Made by a program: the position numbers and the translations under genes | The notes under the pieces: model-generated | Databases searched by the model: none | Told to the model about the DNA's origin: nothing | Seen by the model: the letters and a program-made list of their open reading frames with translations, nothing else | In this document: positions 35,665 through 46,640 of the stretch, one piece after another | Layout: each line of letters opens with the position of its first letter | How positions within the stretch are numbered: position 1 is the first letter of the stretch | DNA from: Cliona cf. orientalis | Taxonomy: Eukaryota > Porifera > Demospongiae > Clionaida > Clionaidae | Length of the DNA: 64,000 bases | Assembly (NCBI GenBank): GCA_963930775.1 | Contig: OZ005691.1 | Location: 5,019,000-5,082,999 of the forward strand | Direction: 5' to 3'

Positions 35665-36066
35665 GTGCATGCAGTGTGTCCAATGACAGCAGTGTCTCCA
35701 GTGACTGCAGTGTCTCCAGTGACAGCAGTGTCCACAGTGTCTCCAGTGATGGCAGTGTCTCCAGTGACAGCAGTGTCTCCAGTGACAGCAGTGTCCCCAG
35801 TGTCTCCAGTGATGGCAGTGTTCCCAGTGACAGCAGTGTCCCCGGTGTCTCCAGTGACAGCAGTGTCCCCAGTGTCTCCAGTGACGGCAGTGTCCCCAGT
35901 AACAGCAGTGTCTCCAGTGATAGCAGTGTCCCCAGTGTCTCCAGTGACAGCAGTCATGGTACCCAGTGACAGCAGTGTCCCCAGTGTCTCCAGTGACGGC
36001 AGTGTCTCCAGTGACAGCAGTGTCCCCAGTGTCTACCAGTGTCTCCAGTAATGGCAGTGTCCCTAG
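35665..36066 (+). repeat. Minisatellite array, left flank of the transposon-like unit
   Basis: About 400 bp built on 9-bp half units CAGTGACAG and CAGTGTCTC/CAGTGTCCC, often as an 18-bp pair. Because the period is a multiple of three, all frames stay open and give Ser/Val-rich pseudo-proteins. Ends at CCCTAGCAGG where the inner inverted repeat starts. Confidence 0.9.
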
Positions 36067-36141
36067 CAGGAGCTTATGAGCCGCCCGTAGGGCGGCGAAG
36101 GAGCGTCCGACTGTGTAAACCATGTGTTAGGCGAAGTCCTT
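36067..36141 (+). repeat. Inner terminal inverted repeat, left
   Basis: The first 46 bases from CAGGAGCTTATGAG are identical to the inverse of the right copy ending at 43757; the block TGTGTTAGGCGAAGTCCTT also matches after a short variable stretch. Contains the hairpin GCCGCCC-GTA-GGGCGGC at 36080-36096. Confidence 0.9.
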
Positions 36142-36244
36142 AGCGTACATTTCCTTATATGGATCGTGGTTAATAATCACCCACTTAGCGGGCACCATTG
36201 AACAGTAATTGTTGCGGTTACACCAAACTTCGCGTACCGTATGA

Positions 36245-36438
36245 TCGTAGAGTTTTCGCGCGGCGCGCGCGAGACTAGCGCTAGCGCGAGCCTAGCACGC
36301 TATACCGGTACCGTACGTACACGTATACCGGTATTACGTTTGCTATACCCGCTAGCGCTCGAGTGCTCGCGCTCGCGCTATAGCGTTTATCATTTATGTA
36401 CGCACGTATATAAATACGCAGTTGTGATCGAGCGAAGC
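36245..36438 (+). promoter_or_regulatory. CpG-rich putative promoter with TATA box
   Basis: A CpG-dense, palindrome-rich stretch (GCTAGCGC, CGCGCGGCGCGCG, CCGGTACCG) about 36255-36390 is followed by TATATAAA at 36407-36414, 25 bases before the chosen ATG at 36439. Either transcription starts near the ATG with almost no leader, or an alternative start is used (upstream in-frame ATG at 36241, downstream Met at 36511). Confidence 0.45.
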
Positions 36439-43671: not shown

Positions 43672-43757
43672 AAGGACTTCGCCTAACACATAGTATGTAC
43701 TACAGTATTGTAGTCGGACGCTCCTTCGCCGCCCTACGGGCGGCTCATAAGCTCCTG
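43672..43757 (-). repeat. Inner terminal inverted repeat, right
   Basis: Inverse of 36067-36141, identical for 46 bases at the outer end, including the GCCGCCC/GGGCGGC hairpin at 43728-43744 or so. The inner part carries about 11 extra bases. Confidence 0.9.
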
Positions 43758-45161
43758 TCCCCAGTGATAGCAGTGTCTCCAGTGACAGCAGTGTCCCCAG
43801 TGTCTCCAGTGACTGCAGTGTCTCCAGTGACAGCAGTGTCCCCAGTGTCTCCAGTGACTGCAGTGTTTTCAGTGACAGCAGTGTCCCCAGTGTCTCCCAG
43901 TGTCTCCAGTGATGGCAGTGTCCTCAGTGACATCAGTGTCTCCAGTGATACCATTGTTTCCAGTGTCTCCAGTGACGGCAGTGTCCCCAGTGACAGCAGT
44001 GTCCCCAGTGTCTACCGGTGTCTCCAGTAACGGCAGTGTCCCCAGTGATAGCAGTATCTCCAGTGACAGCAGTGTCCCCAGTGTCCCCAGTGTCTCCAGT
44101 GACAGCAGTGTCCCCAGTGTCTCCAGTGACTGCAGTGTCTCCAGTGACAGCAGTGTCCCCAGTGTCTCCAGTGACGGCAGTGTCCTCAGTGACAGCAGTG
44201 TCTCCAGTGACAGTAGTGTCCCCAGTGTTTCCAGTGACATCAGTGTTCCTAAGTGACAGCAGTATCCCCAGTGTCTACCAGTGTCTCCAGTAACGGCAGT
44301 GTCCCCAGTGATAGCAGTGTCTCCAGTGACAGCAGTGTCTCCAGTGTCTCCAGTGATAGCAGTGTCCATAGTGTCTCCAGTGATGGCAATGTCCCCAGTG
44401 ACAGCAGTGTCTCCAGTGACAGCAGTGTCCCCAGTGTCTCCAGTGACGGCAGTGTCCCCAGTGACAGCAGTGTCTCCAGTGACAGCAGTGTCCCCAGTGT
44501 TTCCAGTGACGACAGTGTTCCTAAGTGACAGCAGTGTCCCTAGTGTCTACCTGTGTCTCCAGTAACGGCAGTGTCCCCAGTGATAGCAGTGTCTCCAGTG
44601 ATAGCAGTGTCCCCAGTGTCCCCAGTGTCCCCAGTGTCCCCAGTGTCCCCAGTGTCTCCAGTGACAACAGTGTCCCAGTGTCTCCCAGTGTCCCCAGTGA
44701 CGGCAGTGTCCCCAGTGACAGCAGTGTCTCCAGTGACAGCAGTGTCCCTAATGTCTCCAGTGATGGCAGTGTTCCCAGTGACAGCAGTGTCTCCAGTGTC
44801 CCCAGTGTCTCCAGTGACAGCAGTGTTCCCAATGACTGCAGTGTTTCCAGTAACAGGAGTGTCCCCAGTGTTTCCAGTGACGGCAGTGTTCCTAGTGACA
44901 GCAGTGTCCCCAGTGTCTCAAGTGATGGCAGTGTCCCCAGTGACAGCAGTGTCTCCAGTTACAGCAGTGTCCCCAGTGACGGCAGTGTCCCCACTGACAG
45001 CAGTGTCTCTAGTGACAGTAGTGTCCCCAGTGTCTCGAGTGACAGCAGTGTCTCCATTGATGGCAGTGTCTCCAGTGACAGCAGTGTCCCCAGTGTCAGC
45101 AGCTAGTGTCTCCAGTGACCCAGTGTCTCCAGTGACAGTAGTGTCTCCAGTGACAGCAGTG
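43758..45161 (+). repeat. Minisatellite array, forward arm
   Basis: About 1.4 kb of the same 9/18-bp unit as the left array and in the same orientation (CAGTGTCTCCAGTGACAG). Higher-order blocks repeat every 240-250 bp, each including a GTCTACCRGTGTCTCCAGTA junction (44011, 44273, 44547). Confidence 0.9.
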
Positions 45162-45173
45162 TATGCAGCACGT

Positions 45174-46640
45174 AGGACACTGCTATCATTTGAGACACTG
45201 TCATATCACTGGGAACACTACTGTCACTGGAGACACTGGGGACACTGCTGCCACTGCTGTCACTGGACTGCTGTCACTAGGGACACTGCTGTCACTAGAG
45301 ACACTGGAGACACCGGGAACCCTGCTTTCACTGGAGACACTTAGGACATTGCTCTCACTAGGGACGCTGTTGTCATTGAAGACACTGCTGTCACTGGGAA
45401 CACTGGAGACACTAGCTGGGAGACACTGGGGACACTGCTGTCACTAGAGACACTGCTGTCACTGGAGACACTGTTGTCACTGGAGACACTGGGGATACTG
45501 CTATCACTGGAGACACTGGTATACACTGCTGTCACTGGGGATACTGCTGTCACTAGAAACACTGGAGACACTGCTGTCACTAGAGACACTGCTGTCACTG
45601 GAGACACTGCTGTCACTGGAGACACTGGGAGACACTGGGGACACTGCTGACACTGGAGACACTGCTATCACTGGGGACACTGCTGTCACTGGGGACACTG
45701 CTGTCACTAGAGACACTGTTGTCACTGGAGACACTGGGGACACTGCTGTCACTGGAGACACTGGGAGACACTGGGGACACTGCTGTCACTGGAAACACTG
45801 CTATCACTGGGGAGTCACTGGAGACACTAGAGACACTACTGTCACTGGAGACACTGGGGACACTGCATATTGTCACTAGAGACACTGGAGACACTGCTGT
45901 CACTGGGGACACTGCTGTCACTAGAAACACTGGAGACACTGCTGTCACTAGAGCACTGCTGTCACTGGAGACACTGCTGTCACTGGAGACACTGGGGACA
46001 CTGCTGTCACTAGAGACACTGCTGTCACTGGAGACACTGTTGTCACTGGAGACACTGGGGATACTGCTATCACTGGAGACACTGGTATACACTGCTGTCA
46101 CTGGGGACACTGCTGTCACTAGAGACACTGCTGTCACTGGAGACACTGGGGACACTGCTGACACTGGAGACACTGCTGTCTCTGGGGACACTGCTGTCAC
46201 TAGAGACACTAGAAACACTAGAGACACTGTTGTCACTGGAGACACTGGGAGACACTGGGGACACTGATGTCACTCGAGACACTGCTATCACTGGAGACAC
46301 TGCTGTCACTGGAGACACTGTTGTCAGTGGAGACACTGGGATACACTGCTGTCACTGGAGACACTGCTGTCACTAGAAACACTGGAGACACTGCTGTCAC
46401 TAGAGACACTGCTGTCACTGGAGACACTGCTGTCACTGGAAACACTTGTCACTGGAGACACTGGGGACACTGCTGTCACTGGAGACACTGCTATCACTGG
46501 GGACACTGTTGTCACTAGAGACAATGGAGACACTGGGGGCACTGCTGCCACTGGAGACACTGCTGTCACTGGAGACACTGTGGACACTACTGTCACTAGA
46601 GACATTGCAGTCACTTGGGACACTATAGTCATTGATGGCA
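45174..46640 (-). repeat. Minisatellite array, reverse arm
   Basis: About 1.47 kb of the same unit in the opposite orientation (CTGTCACTGGAGACACTG). The switch occurs over about 12 bases (TATGCAGCACGTA). The two arms form an imperfect palindrome of about 2.9 kb. Ends in AT-rich unique-looking DNA at about 46640. Confidence 0.9.

Follow-up and report, generated by a model that had tools for sequence, protein, structure and literature searches.

The locus considered here, in the sponge Cliona cf. orientalis, raises the question of whether a P-like transposon with two genes and the minisatellite arrays on both of its sides form one mobile element or two. All coordinates are positions in the window, which is the whole 64,000-nt stretch analysed (GCA_963930775.1, OZ005691.1:5,019,000-5,082,999, forward strand). 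The initial annotation had described 35665-46640 as a single P-like element with Foldback-style satellite termini and a second gene. Almost certainly these are two nested transposons, a P-like element (the core) inside a foldback-type element (the outer element), and not one composite. Two sets of ends were found, each with its own type of target duplication, and the two genes of the core are linked across many diverged loci. The overall nesting is an ordinary insertion event. What remains new is that the P-like transposons of the Cliona genome include a two-gene lineage, which is well supported by linkage.

Two sets of ends at one locus

The core and its parts are as follows:

36067-43757, plus strand: inner P-like transposon (core), 7,691 bp, with ends defined from other copies
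36067-36112, plus strand: left terminal inverted repeat, 46 bp, perfect, starting with CAGGAGC at 36067
43712-43757, minus strand: right terminal inverted repeat, 46 bp, perfect, ending with GCTCCTG at 43757
36060-36066, no strand: left 7-bp target duplication TCCCTAG, satellite sequence
43758-43764, no strand: right 7-bp target duplication TCCCCAG, satellite sequence
36439-41451, plus strand: transposase gene, 892 amino acids (aa), exons 36439-36643, 36790-37692, 37753-37800, 37963-38666, 40026-40259, 40500-40731 and 41099-41451
41507-43473, minus strand: gene 2, 396 aa, exons 43473-42955, 42239-41847 and 41785-41507, with homologues

The inner inverted pair and the two convergent spliced genes had already been reported in the initial annotation, and both are real. 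The limits of the core come from its other copies. Short copies elsewhere in the genome have the same ends as the inner repeat pair. Among 32 loci scanned, 21 other distinct copies had both ends in view (18 short copies and the long copy L074, plus L081 and L082 from a sister family). All 21 are flanked by perfect 7-bp duplications, none of which extends to 8 bp. Satellite words make up 0-9% of up to 400 bp per side at these copies, versus 63% and 69% at the window copy. The core-family duplications also resemble GTANTAC, with a mean agreement of 3.19 of 6 positions versus 1.57 for 7-mers from their own flanks (z ~6.9). The satellite is unsupported as the preferred target of the core, since none of the 21 other copies has it around them.

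Long copies give the same picture. L074 (on C1) measures 8,129 bp end to end and lies in non-satellite DNA between copies of GCGCGCG. It matches the window core at 98.4% identity across 7,050 aligned bases and at 99.1% across 686. L075 (on C10) is a long copy with pieces 83-93% identical and no intact left end found; its surroundings are non-satellite (only the right flank was scored). L081 (5,015 bp) and L082 (5,075 bp) carry both genes inside CAGGAGCTTATGAGC (CAGGAGC) ends, with the 7-bp duplications ATACAGT and ACACGAG, respectively.

The core-family ends also contain palindromes. The one in the window core end is found at 36080-36096 (GCCGCCC-GTA-GGGCGGC), most short copies have GCCGCCC-GAA-GGGCGGC, and most L081 and L082 ends have GCGCTGC-GAA-GCAGCGC. 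In each end shown the pairing is preserved and the letters vary, as for a dimer site or a hairpin.

The outer element surrounds the core and extends past the limits originally drawn, which fall inside it:

35564-46730, no strand: outer foldback-type element, 11,167 bp long with its core insertion, defined by its end pair and duplication
35555-35563, no strand: left 9-bp target duplication GGAGTAAAT, identical to 46731-46739
46731-46739, no strand: right 9-bp target duplication GGAGTAAAT, identical to the left copy
35564-35602, plus strand: A-type end GGGAGATTCTTCATATAAGCTTCCGTGTGATTACGTAAT, matching the B end over 29 of the first 31 bases and belonging to a family of end sites
46692-46730, minus strand: B-type end, minus-strand sequence GGGTGCTTCTTCATATAAGCTTCCGTGTGATGATGTAAT, pairing with the A end
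35671-36061, plus strand: A-arm minisatellite, part 1, 9/18/45-bp unit AGTGTCTCC AGTGACAGC
43758-45162, plus strand: A-arm minisatellite, part 2, in phase with part 1 at the junction after removal of the core
45176-46631, minus strand: B-arm minisatellite, inverted

The window ends (GGGAGATTCTTCATATAAGCTTCCGTGTGAT from 35564 and, inverted, GGGTGCTTCTTCATATAAGCTTCCGTGTGAT to 46730) begin with GGG and belong to two distinct types, A and B. As had been noted, the arrays flanking the core share one 9/18-bp unit and their outermost parts are inverted; the right-hand array reverses direction at about 45163-45176. Target duplications are present at both sets of ends, perfect over 9 bp at the outer ends and with one mismatch in 7 bp at the inner repeats.

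The outer element is a member of a dispersed family. Its shared end 22-mer has 65 genome sites at up to 2 mismatches (reversed control: 0) and a 20-base version has 78 (control: 1). Of these 78 sites, 67 entered pairing: 54 were paired into 27 copies of 129 bp to 25.9 kb and 13 stayed unpaired. All pairs but one are A+B, the remaining one having an untyped end. Perfect target duplications were present in all 14 copies inspected, that of the window included (8 bp in six, 9 bp in eight). Two copies read whole, L083 and L084, have the ends and head-to-head arrays (at 100-bp resolution) and no core, and an 883-bp copy likewise has arrays and no core. The smallest (C4:10337939-10338067) is reduced to the two ends alone with a 9-bp duplication, the form of a miniature inverted-repeat transposable element (MITE). 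The family thus has inverted tandem-repeat termini and moves as a unit with target duplications, as foldback-type elements do. A 30-base satellite pattern has 1,496 genome sites at up to 1 mismatch, versus 0 for the control. In addition, four sites (C1:29146314, C1:30507867, C1:36690117, C8:5252271) have GGTTGCTTCTTCATATAAGA in common, which may be the terminus of a family that is sister to the outer element.

These copies speak against a single composite P-like transposon in which the satellite arrays are the element's own termini. Such an element would resemble Galileo, a P-superfamily precedent for Foldback-like termini with tandem repeats in passages of PMC4168063, and the arrays do lie on the outer side of both inner repeats. 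However, core copies elsewhere stop exactly at the inner repeats in satellite-free surroundings, array elements exist core-free with ends of their own, and the duplication lengths differ (7 bp for the core, 8-9 bp for the outer element). A core moving together with its flanks as one unit was not found, each occurring as separate copies, and neither were Galileo-type long repeated termini of the core, as its other copies end at short satellite-free repeats. Core copies that stop at the inner repeats and arrays that stand without the core are also the two outcomes named in the initial annotation as refuting its proposal. The composite is therefore very improbable, and the arrays do not belong to the P-like element as originally proposed.

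It is just as hard to credit that the satellite stands on its own in the genome, as a tandem array outside any element, with flanking repeats by chance. One head-to-head array (C1:9027335-9029628, a cluster of seven among the satellite-pattern places listed) does lack an end site at up to 2 mismatches, and 5 of 30 end rows have no array in the 1.5 kb seen inside the end. In the other 25, however, the array starts just inside the end and extends inward, with only stray satellite words outside, and the 8-9-bp duplications are perfect in every inspected copy.

Two nested elements also fit the order of events. When one core duplication is removed and the flanks are joined, the 9-bp phase of the array continues through the junction. 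Since the core duplication is itself satellite sequence, the array predates the insertion of the core. In the most probable scenario the foldback-type element, whose ends are asymmetric (A GGGAGATTC, B GGGTGCTTC) and whose minisatellite arms are head-to-head, landed first and made the 9-bp duplication. Later, the P-like DNA transposon entered a satellite unit of the A arm and made the 7-bp duplication. Both are most likely independent cut-and-paste elements. Passages of PMC3169594 describe a published nested case in Tm1, where an element with 7-bp duplications lies inside one with 9-bp duplications.

A two-gene lineage of P-like transposons

The transposase model has seven exons, an open spliced frame whose stop codon ends at 41451, GT..AG introns, and homologues in the genome. 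PF21787, which we take to be a model covering P and THAP9, matches aa 459-579 with 27.8 bits (cut-off 24.6). Among relatives, L085 scores 44.8 bits and a piece of L081 scores 22.3 bits, slightly under the cut-off. The model holds DGASSN and NPF...HQLK, motifs of the types pointed out initially, and D464, D567 and E830 are candidate DDE residues by motif. Neither the 892-aa model nor the N-terminal pieces of L081 and L085 matched THAP in Pfam at E<=1 (a diverged zinc finger could escape), the 892-aa model has no Pfam match to the GTP-binding insertion domain, and the transposase had 0 matches in PDB. The duplication length falls in the 7-8 bp of the P superfamily (7 bp in 21/21 copies; 6/7 bases in the window copy). 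The predicted P-like identity of the core, already put forward in the initial annotation, holds on the PF21787 match above the cut-off and the 7-bp duplications of Galileo-like preference. One transposase intron contains an inverted-repeat insert (39314-39978) with TACCGTATTTCTTCTAAAAATTCGGC-like ends, inside which a very common repeat lies at about 39388-39830 (1,440 candidate genome places, 40 scored).

The core differs from its known relatives in several respects. Galileo is known as a one-gene element, whereas the core has a second gene. With the P element and THAP9 the core transposase shares the P-type RNase H N-terminal domain (PF21787). These differ in 8-bp duplications, a THAP domain and a GTP-binding insertion (passages of PMC7776569), none of which was found in the core by the tests used. 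Galileo, a P-superfamily element of Drosophila, has in common with the core its 7-bp duplications, a GTANTAC-like target preference and a P-type transposase, but differs in its long Foldback-like termini (passages of PMC4168063) compared to the 46-bp termini of the core. It also has a THAP domain (passages of PMC3688188), whereas the core gave no Pfam THAP match. The statement in the initial annotation that no described family has the proposed combination was too strong as regards P plus Foldback-like termini, because Galileo joins a P-type transposase to Foldback-like termini, which may contain tandem repeats, in the passages of PMC4168063 and PMC3688188. That part would not have been new.

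Gene 2 is the true novelty. It lies between the inner repeats, convergent to the transposase, and its stop codon ends at 41507. The protein has 47 matching stretches genome-wide, forming 34 clusters, with identities down to 21-42% at many diverged loci. Five diverged homologues have no introns, each being an open frame (403-471 codons, stop to stop) that matches along most of its length; they support the spliced model of gene 2. Four of the five have a transposase nearby (L076 does not). The conserved motifs are DK...P......D.G.M.FP and, close to the C-terminus, LRD.L.

The transposase has at least 87 matching stretches in at least 33 clusters. At least 23 of the 34 gene-2 clusters have a transposase cluster no more than 6 kb away, where the random expectation is ~0.002 per locus, and all 23 are convergent. 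A genome search with PF21787 (118 matches) added the pairs at C9:3888579 and C3:4919006, so that at least 25 of 34 gene-2 loci are linked and convergent. Two neighbouring two-gene loci on C1 also yield two cross-pairs in the same orientation (4.4-4.6 kb). Conversely, gene 2 is near 23 of 33 transposase clusters among the matches listed. It is near 13 of 64 weaker PF21787 matches and 0 of 54 stronger ones, a split that was set post hoc.

A tree of the RNase H piece was built from 22 rows: 20 chosen from the 118 PF21787 matches, the window copy and L081. A branch supported at 100/100 separates ten gene-2-linked and four similar unlinked rows from eight ordinary P-like rows; resolution inside the gene-2-linked side is poor. 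Together, the tree and the linkage indicate that gene 2 accompanies one deep transposase group, though it was not found with every member. In this P-like lineage the terminal repeats enclose a convergent pair of genes, one for the transposase and the other for a conserved companion of ~400 aa. The second gene, initially seen in a single copy, is thereby further supported by homologues and genome-wide linkage.

Several observations count against nested elements with a linked gene pair. The window core duplication is imperfect (TCCCTAG and TCCCCAG), and L085, a diverged two-gene locus, has no terminal repeats in the 8 kb examined; its ends may lie beyond. In the transposase genome search 51 of 293 candidates were scored, so the cluster and linkage counts are lower bounds. 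Among the matches listed, no transposase match was found near 9 of 34 gene-2 clusters and no gene 2 near 10 of 33 transposase clusters. In the tree the four similar rows without gene 2 are interspersed with the linked rows, and four changes of the label are required. No outer copy with a transposase of its own was found among the copies read (Mutator transposases were not searched for). L074 is broken in both genes (frame, stops), and neither comparison of core copies gives a clear purifying signal by codon position. Substitutions at positions 1/2/3 number 8/4/2 in the transposase and 4/2/2 in gene 2 between the window and L074, and 40/46/49 and 23/19/32, respectively, between the window and the partly aligned L075. 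Given this pattern and the broken L074, present function of either gene is only putative.

Mobilisation of the outer element

No transposase was found within the outer element, so the enzyme that moves it is probably supplied from another locus. It was probably mobilised in trans by a transposase of the Merlin or Mutator type, and its arms may have been enlarged through repeat expansion. Its terminal GG and 8- or 9-bp duplications fit the Merlin description in passages of PMC8101967, which also report internal tandem repeats, and the genome contains 67 matches to the Merlin transposase domain (DDE_Tnp_IS1595, PF12762). Unlike Merlin, the outer copies read have no recognised transposase and the ends show no link to a Merlin gene: no PF12762 match lies between outer ends, the nearest of the 67 being 14.6 kb from any of the 78 end sites. 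This distance gives no proof of Merlin, and the outer element is not classed as such. Open reading frames beside two array-less end sites (L053 and L069) gave nothing nameable by eye, and no profile search of them was made.

It is quite possible that the outer element is of the Mutator/Foldback type rather than the Merlin type. Most foldback elements with 8-10-bp duplications are assigned to Mutator in the passages on Tetris (PMC4079207) and Tm1 (PMC3169594), although the GG-starting ends and the abundance of PF12762 speak for Merlin. According to the same passages, Foldback, Tetris and Tm1 share with the outer element tandem-repeat termini, many non-coding copies and 8-10-bp duplications. The outer element differs in its 9/18-bp unit, its GGG-starting ends of two types and in having no transposase link seen, and its window copy is almost without a middle domain. 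The outer family clearly exemplifies a transposon that consists almost entirely of minisatellite and is useful for the study of satellite spread and growth. The genome is generally rich in P-like and Merlin-like transposases (118 PF21787 and 67 PF12762 matches).

Role of gene 2 and neighbouring features

Gene 2 has been kept with one transposase group in one arrangement, and it therefore most likely serves the element. Its protein has a basic stretch near the N-terminus (judged by eye), and no known family was recognised. Seven members scanned against Pfam gave no significant match (the best E was 0.06, and member 1 stayed under the cut-offs). In PDB the protein had 0 matches and the best profile match, to a synaptonemal protein, had an E of 0.038 and was taken as chance. 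Relatives numbered 0 in viral_contigs and 0 in prokaryote genomes, and AlphaFold, run on exon 1 without relatives, gave no usable fold (mean predicted local distance difference test score 44).

With a transposase lacking a recognised THAP and a companion with a basic N-terminus, the likeliest single role is help in recognising or pairing the ends. We tentatively propose that gene 2 may encode such an accessory transposition protein, and a regulatory role ranks close behind. It is possible that gene 2 is a self-regulatory or host-defence gene (a repressor or an anti-silencing factor) carried by the element, as would suit a gene that stands apart on the other strand, is convergent with the transposase gene in the 25 linked loci and has no significant known family. 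Nothing decisive stands against this, since persistence with the transposase over deep divergence suits either role.

If gene 2 does act on the ends, this deep branch of the P superfamily might be a two-component system, in which the transposase lost or replaced THAP and the CAGGAGC ends with their palindromes came to be recognised or paired by a convergently transcribed companion of a new family. This is doubtful at present. In the P-element model a single protein carries out transposition that depends on GTP and is guided by THAP. A two-protein P system, if true, would allow a direct test of end recognition handed to a partner. No paper on a two-gene P-superfamily element was found in open-licence PubMed Central by a narrow term test (Repbase was outside the search).

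Other features of the window touch neither element. To the left of the outer element is an unrelated minisatellite (34079-34566) with a unit of ~48-52 bp containing AAGAAAGAGTGTACCCC; by eye, similar sequence continues to about 35550. A direct tandem duplication of 388 bp, with copies 95% alike, lies at 19297-20082. Two neighbouring open frames have features that suggest an identity: 30808-33015 (minus strand) presumably resembles a class C G protein-coupled receptor, and 47989-48327 (plus strand) is taken to resemble an SRCR-domain protein.

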